Assembly: GCF_014145325.1 (NCBI RefSeq)
Contig: NZ_JACHTF010000001.1
Coordinates: 124,001-188,000 of the forward strand
Direction: 5' to 3'
Source of the DNA: Marilutibacter spongiae
Lineage (GTDB): Bacteria > Pseudomonadota > Gammaproteobacteria > Xanthomonadales > Xanthomonadaceae
Length of the DNA: 64,000 nt
This document shows positions 33,630 through 38,419 of the stretch, piece after piece (the stretch's first letter is position 1; the number at the start of each line of letters is the position of its first letter). The position numbers and the translations under genes are program-made. The notes under the pieces were generated by a model that had not been told where the DNA came from, made no database searches, and was given only the letters and a program-made list of their open reading frames with translations.

Positions 33630-35201
33630 ATGGGCAGGAACGCAATTCGTCTCGCATGCGCCGTCGTGCTGCTGTGCGCCTCGGCGCTGGCCGCGGCCGG
33701 CGACTTCAGCAAGCGCTATGCCAGCATCCAGAGCTTCGACGGCACCGCGCTGGGCGCATTGGTGCTGGTGCCCGAGGGCGAGGGGCCCTTCCCGCTGCTG
33801 GTCATGCCGGCCAGCTGGGCGCTGCCGAACCTGGAATACCTGGGCCGCGCCCGCCAACTGGCCGCCGATGGCTACGTGGTGGTCAGCTACACCTCGCGCG
33901 GCTTCTGGGACTCGGCCGGGCGCATCGACATCGCCGGGCCGGCGACGGTGGAGGACGTCAGCGCGGTGATCGACTGGGCGCTGGCGAACACGCCGGCGGA
34001 CCCGGCGGCGATCGGCGCCTCGGGCATCTCCTACGGCGCCGGCACCAGCCTGCTCGCGGCCGGCCGAGATCCGCGCATCAAGGCGGTGGCGGCGCTGAGC
34101 GGCTGGTCCGACCTGGAGGCGTCGCTGTATGCCAACCGCACGGTCAGCCAGCAGGGCGTGGGCCTGCTGGTGGCGGCGGGCGCGCTCACCGGCCGGCCCG
34201 GCCCCGAGCTGACGGCGATCACCGCACGCGTGCTGCTGGGCGACTACGACGGCGCGGTGCAGGGCGTGCTGCCGGTCGCGCCCGAACGCGGTGCGCGCAG
34301 CGAGCTGGCGCGGATCAACCTCAACGGCACGGCGGTCCTGCTGGGCAACGCGTTCAACGATGGCCTGTTCCCGCCCAATCCGCTGGTGGACTTCTTCAAC
34401 GGGCTGACCGGCCCCCGTCAGCTGATCCTCGGCCAGGGCGACCACGCCACCGCCGAGCTGCCCGGCGCGCTGGGCCTGCCCAACGAGGTCTACGACGCCG
34501 CGACGCGCTGGTTCGACCACCACCTGCGCGGGCGCGACAACGGCGTGCCGGCCGAGCCGCAGGTGCGCATGGCCAGCCTTTCCGGCGACTGGCAGGCCTT
34601 CGGCGACTGGGACGCGGTGCAGGCCGACGCGACCGACTACGGCCTCTCGCGGCCGGGCGGTTTCGTGCCCACCGGCGGCCTGACCGGCACGCCGAGCAGC
34701 GGCTGGACGCACCGCATCGGCACCGGACTGCCCACCCTCGCCGACTCGGGCGTGGTACTGGTGTCGGGCCTCCTGCAGGGGCTGGGCCTGCCGGCGACCG
34801 CCTCGATCCCGCTGGTGTCGCGGGTGGGCGCGGCGGTATGGGTGGGGCCGGCAATGCCGGCGACGCGCACGCTGGTGGGCTCGCCGGCGCTGCGCATCAC
34901 GGTCACGCCCAGCCAGGCGTCGGTAAGCCTGTTCGCCTACCTGTACCGCATGGATCGCTGGGGCACCGGTCACCTGCTCAGCCACAAGCCGTATTCGCTG
35001 CGCGGCGTGGCGCCGGGCGTCGCCACGCCGGTGGATATCGCGCTGGAAGCCACCGCCGCGGAAATCCGCGCGGGCGAGCGCCTGGTGCTGGTCATCGATA
35101 CCACCGATCCGCGCTACGCCGACGCGACTTCGCTGGGCGGCACGGTCGCCTTCTCGTCGCCGGCCTCGCGACCGGCACGGCTGCGCGTCGCACTGAAATA
35201 G
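33630..35201 (+). CDS. Secreted CocE/NonD (S15)-type alpha/beta hydrolase
   Basis: The 523-residue product has a Sec signal peptide (about 1-23, ending ALAAAG). An alpha/beta hydrolase domain shows the nucleophile elbow GISYG (S134), an acid candidate in AFNDGLFPP and the His in GQGDHAT. A C-terminal jelly-roll like PepX_C follows (RITVTPSQASVSLFAYLY onward). Such proteins are X-prolyl dipeptidyl-peptidases or esterases/amidases; the substrate cannot be told. The ATG at 33630 has GGGAGGG upstream, and the longer frame lacks a site. From 33477 to 33629 nothing is seen. Confidence 0.8.
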   Translation: MGRNAIRLACAVVLLCASALAAAGDFSKRYASIQSFDGTALGALVLVPEGEGPFPLLVMPASWALPNLEYLGRARQLAADGYVVVSYTSRGFWDSAGRIDIAGPATVEDVSAVIDWALANTPADPAAIGASGISYGAGTSLLAAGRDPRIKAVAALSGWSDLEASLYANRTVSQQGVGLLVAAGALTGRPGPELTAITARVLLGDYDGAVQGVLPVAPERGARSELARINLNGTAVLLGNAFNDGLFPPNPLVDFFNGLTGPRQLILGQGDHATAELPGALGLPNEVYDAATRWFDHHLRGRDNGVPAEPQVRMASLSGDWQAFGDWDAVQADATDYGLSRPGGFVPTGGLTGTPSSGWTHRIGTGLPTLADSGVVLVSGLLQGLGLPATASIPLVSRVGAAVWVGPAMPATRTLVGSPALRITVTPSQASVSLFAYLYRMDRWGTGHLLSHKPYSLRGVAPGVATPVDIALEATAAEIRAGERLVLVIDTTDPRYADATSLGGTVAFSSPASRPARLRVALK

Positions 35202-35313: not shown

Positions 35314-36162
35314 ATGGATGCCACAGCTTCACCCACCCCGTTCTTCTCCGTGGCCGAGCGTCTCGTCCTCGACGCGCCCGACGACGACTGGGACCTGGTC
35401 CTGGACGAGGGGCCCATCGTCGCCACGGCGATCCACGATGGCCATGCCATGCGCCCGTCGCTCGCGCGCCACCTCGCCGTCGACGAGCCCGGCCGCCGGC
35501 GCGAGGAAGACCCGCTGACCGGTGCGCTGGTCGAGGTCGGCGACGTCCGGCTGCGGGTACGTGCCTCGCGCTTCCAGATCGACCTCAACCGGCCGCGGGA
35601 CCTGGCCCTGTCGACCGATCCGGCCGATACCTGGGGCCTGAAGGTCTGGAAGGGCCCGTTGCCTCCGGGCGAACTGGCGACCTCGCTCGCGGCGCACGAT
35701 CGCTTCTACGCGATGATGACCGAACTGATGGAGCGGCTGATCGCGCGCTGGGGCTGCGTGCTCCTGCTCGACATCCACAGCTACAACCACCGCCGGGACG
35801 GCGCCGCCGTGGCGCCGGCACCGGCGGGCGGCAACCCCGACATCGACGTGGGCGCCACCACCCTCGACCGCAGCCGCTGGGGCCACGCCGTGGAGCGCCT
35901 GGTGGAGGTGCTGCGCGAACATCCGGCCGCGGGGCGCGCGCTCGACGTGCGCGAGAACGTGCGCTACGACGGCGGCGGGCATTTCCCCGAGTGGCTCCAC
36001 GCCACCTATGGCGACAAGGTCTGCGCGGTGTCGCTCGAGTACAAGAAGTTCTACATGGACGAGTGGACCGCCCGCGCCGACATCGCGGTGCTCGACGACC
36101 TGCGCCGTGGACTGGCGGCCGCGGTCGACGCCGTCCGCGGGGAGTTCCACGCATGCCGGTGA
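35314..36162 (+). CDS. N-formylglutamate amidohydrolase family protein
   Basis: The 282-residue product shows FGase-family motifs QIDLNRPRD, LLDIHSYNHRR (likely metal ligands) and a C-terminal GGGHFPEWLHATYGDK followed by VSLEYKKFYMDEW. Classical HutG-type members cleave N-formylglutamate, but there is no histidine-degradation gene nearby. Instead the gene overlaps a QEGLA-motif gene, followed by an ATP-grasp ligase. Its real substrate is probably another amide or acylated amino acid; that is inference. The start at 35314 removes an unlikely N-terminal extension. Confidence 0.8.
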   Translation: MDATASPTPFFSVAERLVLDAPDDDWDLVLDEGPIVATAIHDGHAMRPSLARHLAVDEPGRRREEDPLTGALVEVGDVRLRVRASRFQIDLNRPRDLALSTDPADTWGLKVWKGPLPPGELATSLAAHDRFYAMMTELMERLIARWGCVLLLDIHSYNHRRDGAAVAPAPAGGNPDIDVGATTLDRSRWGHAVERLVEVLREHPAAGRALDVRENVRYDGGGHFPEWLHATYGDKVCAVSLEYKKFYMDEWTARADIAVLDDLRRGLAAAVDAVRGEFHACR

Positions 36163-37352
36163 GCGCGATGCACGCGCCGGCGCGCGCGCTGCCCCCCGTG
36201 GCCGCGCGGATCGACGCCGCCCTGGTCGAGCTCGACCGCCAGATCGACTGGCTGCTGGCGCTCTCGCCGATCGACAACGATGGGGCCTGGCAGGCCTTCG
36301 AGGCCAGCGGTTTCCGCCAGGCGCCGCCGCTGCGCTACATCGACCTGGAGATCGACCTCGACGAGGCGCGTGCGCGCCTGGACGCGCTGCCCCTGGACGA
36401 CATCGAGTCGCCCTTGCTGTCGGGCCTGCTCAGCGAGAAGCAGCGCGAGCTGGAGCGGCACCTGCAACTGGTGCGCCTGCGCGGCACGGAGGGCTTCGTC
36501 AACGCCAGCCTCGATCTGTTCGGGGGTGTCGATGCCGGCCTGCGCGCGCTGGCCGACGAGATCCTCGCGAGCGTGCCCCACGGGGTGCCGCTGGTCGCTG
36601 ACGCCGGCATCGACGAGGTCGTCGAAGCGGTCGAGGCCGAACTGGACTGGTACCGCGGCCAGGCCGGCGACTTCAAGGCCGACGTGGTCGTGGACACCGA
36701 CATCGGCTCGATGATGATGGTTTCGCACGGGACCTTCTACGTCGATGGCGGCATCCGCGTGCCGCGCGCGCGCGTGCAGCCGCTGGTGCAGCACGAGATC
36801 GGCACCCATGTCGTCACCCGCTACAACGGCGGCCACCAGCCCCTGCGCCAGCTCGAAGTGGGCCTGGCGCACTACGACGCCCTGCAGGAAGGCCTGGGCG
36901 TGCTGGCCGAATACCTCGCCGGCTACCTGCCCGGCGACCGCCTGCGCGTGCTGGCCGCCCGCGTCGTGGCGGTGGACATGGCCGTCGCCGGCGAGGGCAT
37001 ACCGCGGATCCACGCCTTCCTGCGCGAGACCCATGGCCTGCCGACCAACGAAGCCTTCGACATCGCGGTGCGCGCGCTGCGCGGCGGCGGCTTGACCAAG
37101 GACGCGGTCTACCTCAGTGGCCTGCGCGACCTGCTCGCCCACCTCCACGCCGGTGGCGAGCTGGGGCCTCTGCTGCGCGGCAAGTTCGCCCTCTCGCACC
37201 TGCCCGTCGTCGACCGGCTGGAAGAAGAGGGGTGGGCGGTGCCGCCGGCGCTGATGCCGCGCTACGCCCACGACGACCGCTTCGCCGATCGCCTGCAACG
37301 CTGCCGCGAAACCGGCATCGCCGACTTCTTCCACATGGAACCACGCGCATGA
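36153..37352 (+). CDS. QEGLA-motif (DUF1704, MATCAP-like) putative peptidase
   Basis: This 399-residue cytoplasmic-looking protein is of the family annotated as flavohemoglobin expression-modulating QEGLA motif protein. It has the metallopeptidase-like motif HEIGTH (214-219, HExxxH) and QEGLG (245-249) with a further Glu at 253. This arrangement is shared with the tyrosine carboxypeptidase (MATCAP) family of eukaryotes. A role in releasing a C-terminal residue, or another hydrolysis, is inferred. It overlaps the amidohydrolase by 10 bases and the ATP-grasp gene by 4. A start at 36168 is also possible. Confidence 0.8.
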   Translation: MPVSAMHAPARALPPVAARIDAALVELDRQIDWLLALSPIDNDGAWQAFEASGFRQAPPLRYIDLEIDLDEARARLDALPLDDIESPLLSGLLSEKQRELERHLQLVRLRGTEGFVNASLDLFGGVDAGLRALADEILASVPHGVPLVADAGIDEVVEAVEAELDWYRGQAGDFKADVVVDTDIGSMMMVSHGTFYVDGGIRVPRARVQPLVQHEIGTHVVTRYNGGHQPLRQLEVGLAHYDALQEGLGVLAEYLAGYLPGDRLRVLAARVVAVDMAVAGEGIPRIHAFLRETHGLPTNEAFDIAVRALRGGGLTKDAVYLSGLRDLLAHLHAGGELGPLLRGKFALSHLPVVDRLEEEGWAVPPALMPRYAHDDRFADRLQRCRETGIADFFHMEPRA

Positions 37353-38419
37353 ACGACCGCACCGCCTCGCCGAACAAGCTGGGCTTCGTCATCAACGACA
37401 TGGCGACCGAGAAGGACAACTTCACCACGATCCGCCTGGCCCGGCGCGCCATCGCACGCGGCCACGAGGTCTCGCTGATCGGGCTGGGCGGCTTCATCTA
37501 CGACAGCAACGGCGTGATCCGCGCGCATGCCCACCGCCCGCGCGGCACCGGCTATGCCGACGATGCCGAACTGCTGGCCGACCTGCAGGGCGACGACGCC
37601 CGGATCGAGCGCATCTCGGTCGAGGCGCTGGACGTGCTCATGTTGCGCAGCGACCCGGCCGACGAGGTGAACGAGCGGCCGTGGGCCCCCAACAGCGGGC
37701 TGCTGTTCGCGCAGTTGGCCGCGCTCAAGCACGTGATCGTGCTCAACGATCCCACCCACCTGACCGACGCCTCCAACAAGACCTATTTCCAGCACTTCCC
37801 CGAGGAGGTGCGGCCGGTCACCTGCATCACCCTGGACGCGGAGGAGATCAAGGCCTTCATCGCCGCGCACGACGGCCATGGCGTGATCAAGCCGCTGCAG
37901 GGTTCGGGCGGGCAGAGCGTGTTCGTGGTGACCCCCGACAGCGGCGGCAACCTCAACCAGATGATCGACGCGGTGACCCGCGACGGCTATGCCATCGTGC
38001 AGGAGTACCTGCCGCGGGCGGTCGACGGCGACCTGCGCCTGCTGACGCTCAACGGCCGCCCCCTGGAAGTGGACGGCACGTACGCCTGCATCCGCCGCTA
38101 CAACGACAGCGGCGACGCGCGCAGCAACATCAGTGCCGGCGGCAAGTACGAGATGGCGGTGCCCGACGAGGATGCCCTGCGCATCGCCAGCATCGTCGCG
38201 CCCAAGCTGATGCGCGACGGCATGTACTTCGCCGGGTTGGACATCGTCGGCGACAAGATGATGGAGATCAACGTCGACACGCCCGGTGGCATCAACATGG
38301 CCGACGACCTCACCGGGCTGGATTTCAGCGGGCACATCATCGCCGACCTGGAACGCAAGGTCGCCATGCGCGACCACTACAACCGCACGCTCAGCAACAC
38401 CGAACTGGCGATGATGTAG
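37349..38419 (+). CDS. ATP-grasp ligase, glutathione synthetase-like
   Basis: This 356-residue product has a pre-ATP-grasp domain (about 10-130), the ATP-binding loop VIKPLQGSGGQSVF and the Mg-binding EINVDTPGGI. Both motifs are very close to GshB (glutathione synthetase). ATP-grasp enzymes of this group join a carboxylate to an amine through an acyl phosphate. With no gshA nearby and the two hydrolases upstream, it may form a different peptide-like bond. It could also be a true gshB paralogue. It starts inside the stop of the upstream gene, so it is tightly coupled. Confidence 0.82.
   Translation: MNDRTASPNKLGFVINDMATEKDNFTTIRLARRAIARGHEVSLIGLGGFIYDSNGVIRAHAHRPRGTGYADDAELLADLQGDDARIERISVEALDVLMLRSDPADEVNERPWAPNSGLLFAQLAALKHVIVLNDPTHLTDASNKTYFQHFPEEVRPVTCITLDAEEIKAFIAAHDGHGVIKPLQGSGGQSVFVVTPDSGGNLNQMIDAVTRDGYAIVQEYLPRAVDGDLRLLTLNGRPLEVDGTYACIRRYNDSGDARSNISAGGKYEMAVPDEDALRIASIVAPKLMRDGMYFAGLDIVGDKMMEINVDTPGGINMADDLTGLDFSGHIIADLERKVAMRDHYNRTLSNTELAMM

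Follow-up and report, generated by a model that had tools for sequence, protein, structure and literature searches.

Gene Layout and Conservation of the Module

The window analyzed here is a 64,000-nucleotide stretch of Marilutibacter spongiae DNA (positions 124,001 to 188,000 of contig NZ_JACHTF010000001.1), in which a Lysobacter trio of forward-strand genes at 35314-38419 encodes an FGase-family amidohydrolase, a QEGLA/MATCAP metallopeptidase and a GshB-like ATP-grasp ligase. The FGase gene (35314..36162, + strand; ATG start, TGA stop) specifies a product of 282 aa, the QEGLA/MATCAP gene (36153..37352, +; ATG start, TGA stop) one of 399 aa, and the ATP-grasp gene (37349..38419, +; ATG start, TAG stop) one of 356 aa. 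The first two genes overlap by 10 bp (36153..36162, +) and the last two by 4 bp, ATGA (37349..37352, +). The coordinates, reading frames and both overlaps of the original prediction were borne out.

With the peptidase as sole query, 80 homologous loci were retrieved, and the order FGase, MATCAP, ATP-grasp was kept in 70 of them, spanning six phyla; this far exceeds chance for peptidase-retrieved loci, with the Bacteroidota and Planctomycetota synteny describing loci chosen by peptidase similarity and not a random sample. The overlap between the MATCAP and ATP-grasp genes was exactly 4 bp at 41 of 49 homologous loci, and the distances of the three proteins were congruent (Mantel r 0.92-0.95). 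Across 299 phylum genomes, strong module-type ATP-grasp genes, copies at contig ends excepted, always lay ~1.1-1.2 kb from a module-type MATCAP gene, and the canonical GshB and canonical QEGLA genes of the same genomes were unpaired. The three genes are thus regular neighbors in other genomes, and the earlier proposal that they form one unit holds on gene order, overlap and congruent distances. Taken together, the unit, its order and coupling, the conserved active sites and the folds described below make the trio a conserved, co-translated enzyme module. Some variation was seen: certain Planctomycetota loci carry two or three ATP-grasp copies, and at two loci (L134 and L135) the FGase and MATCAP genes are separated by other genes, which differ between the two.

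Predicted Activities of the Three Proteins

The QEGLA protein scored 246 bits against Pfam PF08014 (cut-off 27) and 270 bits against the QEGLA equivalog TIGR02421, under its cut-off of 338.65; it therefore shares superfamily and motif with the "flavohemoglobin expression-modulating QEGLA motif protein" of that profile without reaching its threshold. Its own profile matched human MATCAP (7z5g, E=3.5e-8), and the model of a Pontibacter homolog, ~40% identical to the window protein, matched the same structure with a TM of 0.70 and an E of 1.8e-9. The predicted metal-binding and catalytic motif HEIGTH (HExxxH; residues 214-219, positions 36792..36809, +) has H214, E215 and H219 invariant, and the predicted third metal ligand, Glu246 of QEGLG (36888..36890, +), falls in an invariant column that aligns with the glutamate of the human MATCAP EEGL. 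HExxxH was present in all 98 module-type homolog matches, and the same motif occurs in human TMCP/MATCAP (PMC10499314). The original placement of this protein in the MATCAP peptidase group, made from HEIGTH and a downstream Glu, is thus sustained by the PF08014 score, the 7z5g match and the complete metal motif, and we assign it as a predicted MATCAP-family gluzincin metallopeptidase. In most other phyla the MATCAP protein has an extra N-terminal domain, which the window protein lacks. This domain aligned colinearly but weakly with FGase sequences (E 0.0019, probability 14%), and its predicted model matched 2q7s (E 5e-3) with agreeing order of strands and helices; by these comparisons it is probably a degenerate, inactive FGase-like domain.

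The FGase protein scored 82 bits against Pfam PF05013 (cut-off 28.9). Its AlphaFold model (pLDDT 89) had the FGase 2q7s as best PDB match (TM 0.69), with M14 carboxypeptidases and the deglutamylase CCP5 among the next-nearest folds. Residues H41, D66, H155, R93 and E242 are conserved, and module FGases bear the signatures AIHDGH, REEDPxT, DLNR, HSYNHRR and EYKKxYMDEW. This protein is accordingly classed, by family profile and model, as an FGase-superfamily member and a predicted zinc amidohydrolase. It has PF05013, the fold and the H/DLNR/H residues in common with HutG, but no HutG match was obtained among the NCBIfam profiles, TIGR02017 included. A separate HutG is encoded on C31 (358 bits, cut-off 278.75), and the HutG role was therefore rejected for the window protein.

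The ATP-grasp protein matched Pfam GSH-S_ATP (PF02955) with 147 bits (cut-off 23), and its best NCBIfam profile was NF009110 (the PRK12458 group), at 378 bits vs. a curated cut-off of 408 that module homologs from Pontibacter (456) and Vibrionaceae (476) both pass. It stayed under the GshB equivalog cut-offs (TIGR01380, 163 vs. 299; NF003573, 182 vs. 272) and reached only 55 bits with the RimK profile TIGR00768 (cut-off 143.4). The nearest solved structure is GshB (1gsa), with which it shares the ATP-grasp fold and the ATP and Mg residues, but the substrate loop differs. The SPTCIRE loop that E. coli GshB shares with the GshB of this genome is replaced by DTPGGIN in the window protein, and the position reads [DF][TS]PG[GNA] in all 83 readable sequences (88 distinct sequences, 5 unread by the pattern). 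We therefore consider the protein a predicted GshB-like carboxylate-amine ligase. It is also the best conserved of the three, with identity to the window protein down to 77% where that of the FGase is 54-57%.

The gene is annotated as a glutathione synthetase, and together with the GshB structure this would agree with a second glutathione or thiol pathway in which the ATP-grasp protein is a GshB isoenzyme and the hydrolases act in glutathione turnover. We judge this very improbable, given the failed curated cut-offs, the replacement of the SPTCIRE loop among homologs, and the presence of a canonical gshB at C11:293406 (457 bits, cut-off 299) and of gshA at C4:96274. The ATP-grasp gene is hence not the only gshB of the genome, and the GshB role was rejected for it. 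A canonical QEGLA member is likewise encoded on C3 (365 bits), beside rsgA and with neither ligase nor FGase there. Canonical paralogs of all three trio genes thus exist elsewhere in the genome, a point that the original prediction had missed, although it had rightly set the HutG and GshB roles aside. These paralogs weigh most heavily against the textbook roles, which are excluded because HutG, GshA, GshB and an ordinary QEGLA protein are encoded separately and the cut-offs failed; the module is independent of glutathione and histidine metabolism. By extension, many NF009110 genes annotated "glutathione synthetase" probably make no glutathione.

Genomic Neighborhood and Salt Response

The gene for a secreted S15-type hydrolase upstream (33630-35201), which had been suggested as a possible member, is real and recurs only in a 96%-identical L. 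aestuarii locus; with its neighborhood conserved solely there, it was dropped as a fourth component. Outside Vibrionaceae no recurrent partner gene was found by ORF clustering across diverse loci and inspection of the directly flanking genes, and the cross-phylum ORF clusters, not individually checked, appeared to be overlapping-frame ORFs of the trio. In one rival reading the trio would be a peptide-salvage operon, its hydrolases degrading peptides that are formylated or acidic and its ATP-grasp enzyme re-using the products, with shared degradation and no tagging cycle. The FGase family consists of catabolic enzymes that remove formyl or acyl groups, and there are two hydrolases per ligase, as salvage would have it. 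Nevertheless, no uptake system or aminopeptidase was found linked to the module, and a central role is the better fit for the ATP-grasp gene, given its translational coupling and its conservation, the highest in the trio; salvage is in our estimation distinctly unlikely.

In Vibrionaceae the module takes a particular form. The FGase and MATCAP proteins are fused into a single protein in 54 of 150 genomes, and a gene for a DUF413 (MaoP-family) protein precedes the ligase in all 29 uncut loci. This DUF413 protein has a strongly acidic tail (for example ...DDDDTDSGSDSDLDY), and 17 of 30 such tails end in Tyr. Next to this DUF413 gene, no conserved LysR regulator was found. In Photobacterium damselae, what is apparently the ligase/peptidase pair was induced 38-fold and 27.5-fold at 1% vs. 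3% NaCl (PMC10308900). The pair appears without comment in two published tables, one of them this low-salt induction table (PMC10308900), and no description of the trio module was found in open-licence papers. The trio appears to be a so far undescribed system through which an acidic peptide or protein gains and loses amino acids.

Proposed Function of the Module

From a ligase accompanied by two hydrolases, the original prediction had concluded that an amide-linked metabolite or a peptide tag may be made and turned over, and the composition of the trio agrees with this. We tentatively propose, at somewhat less than an even chance, that the module forms and hydrolyses amide bonds at the C-terminus of an acidic, Glu/Asp-rich tail on a peptide or protein. 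In this scheme the ATP-grasp enzyme would spend ATP to attach an amino acid to a carboxylate, the MATCAP-family metallopeptidase would take C-terminal residues off again, and the FGase/M14-fold amidohydrolase would act on an acidic residue, terminal or in a side chain, by hydrolysing either its amide or an acyl group that it carries. Which way each reaction runs, and that the substrate has an acidic tail, is what we infer. By analogy with RimK-RimB and tubulin-tail processing, a writer-eraser cycle at acidic C-termini would be the best reading of the trio. Counting against the acidic-tail reading, the module has no linked partner protein outside Vibrionaceae, so that a dedicated tail-bearing substrate was not seen there. 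Moreover, DUF413 proteins unlinked to the module have fairly acidic tails too, and the multiple ATP-grasp copies of some Planctomycetota loci might reflect a small peptide that is built up step by step.

Nearly as likely, and in our view quite possible, is a small amide-linked metabolite that is made and recycled, for instance a short acidic peptide, an N-acyl-glutamyl dipeptide or a compound resembling an osmolyte; here the ATP-grasp enzyme would join the parts, the FGase would free the acyl or amino group, and cleavage of the peptide bond would fall to the MATCAP-like peptidase. Such a product is suggested by the closeness of the ligase to GshB, whose substrate is a small peptide (a point that also speaks against an acidic tail), by that of the FGase to N-formylglutamate amidohydrolases, which use small molecules, by the absence of a protein partner conserved across phyla and by the several ATP-grasp copies at some loci. 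The low-salt induction in P. damselae is also compatible with an osmotically controlled metabolite (PMC10308900). On the other hand, the only characterised MATCAP-family members, MATCAP/TMCP, are carboxypeptidases that target protein tails, namely the acidic tails of tubulin (PMC10499314). In Vibrionaceae, moreover, the ligase gene is coupled to that of the acidic-tail DUF413 protein, and neither a transporter nor a further biosynthetic enzyme was found linked to the module.

The acidic-tail reading is favored by the action of MATCAP/TMCP on tubulin tails, by the M14 carboxypeptidase and CCP5 folds near the FGase model, by the joining of FGase and MATCAP sequences in one protein and by the acidic-tail DUF413 protein of Vibrionaceae. 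For this reading, too, RimK-RimB and RloC-RloA are precedents of operons combining an ATP-grasp enzyme with a peptidase (PMC11957791, PMC12239564). In Pseudomonas, RimK adds glutamates to the C-terminus of RpsF and RimB takes them off; ligase and peptidase (RimABK) are co-transcribed and hybrid RimB-RimK proteins exist (PMC11957791). The trio likewise places ligase and hydrolase in one translational unit through the 4-bp overlap, but its ligase is GshB-like and not a RimK, and its hydrolases are a PF08014 gluzincin and a PF05013 FGase whereas RimB is a retropepsin-like aspartic endopeptidase. The Rlo operon of P. aeruginosa (RloA protease, RloB and the ATP-grasp RloC) is tied to hypo-osmotic tolerance (PMC12239564), and the trio resembles it in joining an ATP-grasp enzyme with a peptidase and in the low-salt response of the Photobacterium pair (PMC10308900). 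However, Rlo works with a secreted, retropepsin-like protease (RloA) and a transglutaminase-like membrane protein (RloB), and it lacks both MATCAP and FGase.

The eukaryotic tubulin-tail cycle (TTL/TTLL, MATCAP/TMCP and the CCP deglutamylases) draws on the same three fold classes as the trio, TTL being of the ATP-grasp ligase class and CCP of the M14-fold hydrolase class. It differs in that the trio has no tubulin target, its ligase is nearest GshB and not TTL, and its FGase is nearest FGases with only distant resemblance to CCPs. A stronger proposal, which we hold to be rather unlikely, would make the module the equivalent, widespread in bacteria, of the cycle at tubulin C-terminal tails: the ATP-grasp ligase would write residues on acidic protein tails, and the MATCAP peptidase and the M14-fold FGase would erase them. 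In Vibrionaceae the DUF413/MaoP-family protein would be the target, and in other groups a different acidic protein. Should the substrate be a protein tail, the module would join RimK-RimB and Rlo as a third ATP-grasp/peptidase modification system and have a bearing on the origin of the tubulin-tail enzymes. Bacteria commonly encode PF08014 proteins, and the name "flavohemoglobin expression-modulating" is silent on their chemistry; members were recognised as peptidases via human MATCAP/TMCP. The three-enzyme partnership in six phyla gives one bacterial PF08014 branch a defined context, apart from the standalone QEGLA proteins.

Conservation of the gene trio

In the window, the FGase (PF05013, 35314-36162), MATCAP (PF08014, 36153-37352) and ATP-grasp (GSH-S_ATP, PF02955, 37349-38419) genes, all on the + strand, match their families well above the Pfam cut-offs and overlap by 10 bases (FGase/MATCAP) and 4 bases (MATCAP/ATP-grasp), confirming the original prediction as to genes, families and overlaps. 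The peptidase profile, run by itself against genome contigs, picked out 80 loci. Profile searches for the other two families in these loci showed that 70 carry FGase, MATCAP and ATP-grasp in this order on the same strand; co-occurrence and order are thus conserved, as anticipated for a single unit. Truncation at a contig end, a frameshift or duplication affects eight of the other 10; in the remaining two (L062 and L104), no ATP-grasp gene adjoins the peptidase gene. Intact trios occur in Pseudomonadota (Lysobacterales, Alphaproteobacteria), Campylobacterota, Bacteroidota, Planctomycetota, Gemmatimonadota and Calditrichota, several of them in MAGs, and the peptidase/ligase overlap is exactly 4 bp in 41 of the 49 loci with a placeable start codon. 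Pairwise distances of the three proteins are strongly correlated (r 0.92-0.95; 0.92-0.96 outside Lysobacterales), and two members of the same family (genomes G011 and G018, loci L019 and L021) each carry a distant version of all three proteins (36-44% identical), which argues for inheritance or exchange of the trio as a whole.

The host genome encodes a canonical QEGLA protein (contig C3, TIGR02421, 365 bits), HutG (C31, TIGR02017, 358 bits) and GshB (C11:293406, TIGR01380, 457 bits), all separate from the trio, as well as gshA (C4, PF04107, 315 bits), and the trio proteins fall below, or have no match to, the curated equivalog models TIGR02421, TIGR02017 and TIGR01380. The module thus comes on top of the host's histidine degradation and glutathione synthesis; its ligase is not the host's sole GshB-like enzyme, and the earlier view that HutG and GshB roles do not fit the trio holds. 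The host's standalone QEGLA gene (L038:6261-7520, on C3) adjoins an rsgA-like GTPase gene.

In a control sample of 299 genomes from the phylum, the ATP-grasp matches listed, which are the stronger ones, fall into two groups: the module type, with 451-680 bits at 9 places, and ordinary GshB, with at most 175 bits. A module-type MATCAP lies ~1.1-1.2 kb from eight of these nine, the ninth being at a contig end, and one module-type MATCAP (contig C24 of genome G150) has no ligase nearby among the matches listed. Standalone QEGLA proteins of the sample (at most 106 bits) have no adjoining ligase among the matches listed.

Fusions, active sites and folds

Vibrionaceae-like genomes encode FGase and MATCAP as one protein of ~661 aa, with the ATP-grasp gene directly upstream (locus L132); 54 of 150 Vibrionaceae genomes carry the fusion at nearly full length, and it is independent evidence that FGase and MATCAP are functionally linked. 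The MATCAP protein of Bacteroidota, Planctomycetota, Campylobacterota and others carries an extra N-terminal domain of 230-250 aa, absent from the Lysobacter protein. Its predicted strand/helix order agrees with that of FGase, to which its profile can be aligned colinearly (E 0.0019, at a probability of only 14%), and in the predicted model it matches FGase 2q7s (E 5e-3), but its catalytic His is missing; this is probably a degenerate FGase domain.

All three enzymes are likely active, judging from the residues kept: HExxxH in 98 of 98 MATCAP matches, with the QEGL glutamate aligned to that of human MATCAP; H41, D66, DLNR, H155 and E242 in the FGase, where the Asn-Arg pair of DLNR is presumably akin to the one with which M14 enzymes bind carboxylate; and KPLxGxGG and the metal residues D298, E306 and N308 in the ATP-grasp protein. 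The SPTCIRE loop of GshB is replaced in the ligase by a [DF][TS]PGG-type sequence, so its substrate is likely other than that of GshB. The nearest structures to the model of the window FGase (pLDDT 89) are FGases 2q7s and 2odf, followed by M14 metallocarboxypeptidases, among them bacterial cytosolic carboxypeptidase 4b6z and, as a weak match, deglutamylase CCP5. For a Pontibacter homolog ~40% identical to the window MATCAP protein, the model (pLDDT 90) has human MATCAP as its best match (TM 0.70), with weaker matches to other proteins including M32 carboxypeptidases; together with the conserved motif and glutamate, this supports the proposed likeness to the MATCAP group.

Candidate substrates

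That one ligase and two hydrolases are made in a fixed ratio suggests that the trio would perform a reversible modification or turnover cycle. We tentatively favor an acidic protein C-terminal tail as the leading substrate candidate, because MATCAP-family enzymes characterised so far trim acidic protein C-termini (PMC10499314). Precedents are RimK-RimB, which adds and removes glutamate on RpsF and of which hybrid proteins exist (PMC11957791), and the ATP-grasp/peptidase operon Rlo, linked to hypo-osmotic tolerance (PMC12239564). The module resembles such known writer-eraser operons in its presumed working and is a member of none tested here; no description of it was found in the open literature searched, against which the combination of these already known families is new.

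A small amide metabolite as the product, a somewhat more doubtful possibility, comes close behind, since no protein partner is linked to the module outside Vibrionaceae and both ligase and FGase resemble small-molecule enzymes. Within Vibrionaceae, the gene immediately preceding the ligase gene in all 29 loci with enough sequence encodes a DUF413 protein (PF04219, to which E. coli MaoP belongs), giving the order DUF413, ATP-grasp, fused FGase-MATCAP (L132:5423-8798 in genome G298; likewise L136-L165), and is the sole DUF413 gene in most genus-g204 genomes tested. Module-linked DUF413 tails hold 6-9 acidic residues within the last 20 (for example ...GDDDDTDSGSDSDLDY) and mostly end in Tyr (17/30) or Ile (6/30), the Tyr endings coming mostly from one genus and thus not being independent observations; the tails of standalone DUF413 proteins are acidic too, but have D, E or A as the last residue. 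This linkage and these tails suggest a protein-tail substrate. In locus L139, a second copy of the DUF413 gene follows shortly downstream.

In Photobacterium damselae at 1% vs 3% NaCl, 'GshB' (A0J47_RS17020) and 'QEGLA' (A0J47_RS17025), adjacent to judge from their consecutive tags, rose 38.4-fold and 27.5-fold, the former read by the authors as glutathione synthesis, while at low salt RimK (A0J47_RS00405) rose 52-fold and a hypothetical gene near the pair (RS17005) 18.6-fold (PMC10308900). The joint rise of RimK and the module ligase hints at common osmotic control. VV2_1203 (COG3930) and VV2_1204 ('glutathione synthetase') of V. vulnificus are jointly listed as clade-specific genes (PMC3091676).

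Neighboring genes and variant loci

The S15/CocE-type hydrolase directly upstream (33630-35201, +), which has an N-terminal signal-like stretch and had been considered a possible member, adjoins the trio elsewhere only in the near-identical locus of L. aestuarii (96% identity at the locus), a species near which the host, a Lysobacter, is placed. The other neighboring genes in the window are mostly not common to other loci, even within Lysobacteraceae. A uracil-DNA glycosylase superfamily gene (PF03167, 38429-39019, -; no NCBIfam match) is convergent with the trio.

Two or three tandem module-type ATP-grasp copies follow one MATCAP gene in Gemmatimonadota and Planctomycetota MAGs (L092, L094, L120, L121), and two loci (L093, L101) have two MATCAP/ATP-grasp sets each. 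Some relatives have a frameshift in the MATCAP gene, and others a break in it at a contig end (L088, Luteimonas sp. 4-12; L020, genome G017; contigs C10 and C12 of genome G001; L086, Lysobacter penaei), which may reflect decay or interruption, or else assembly faults.
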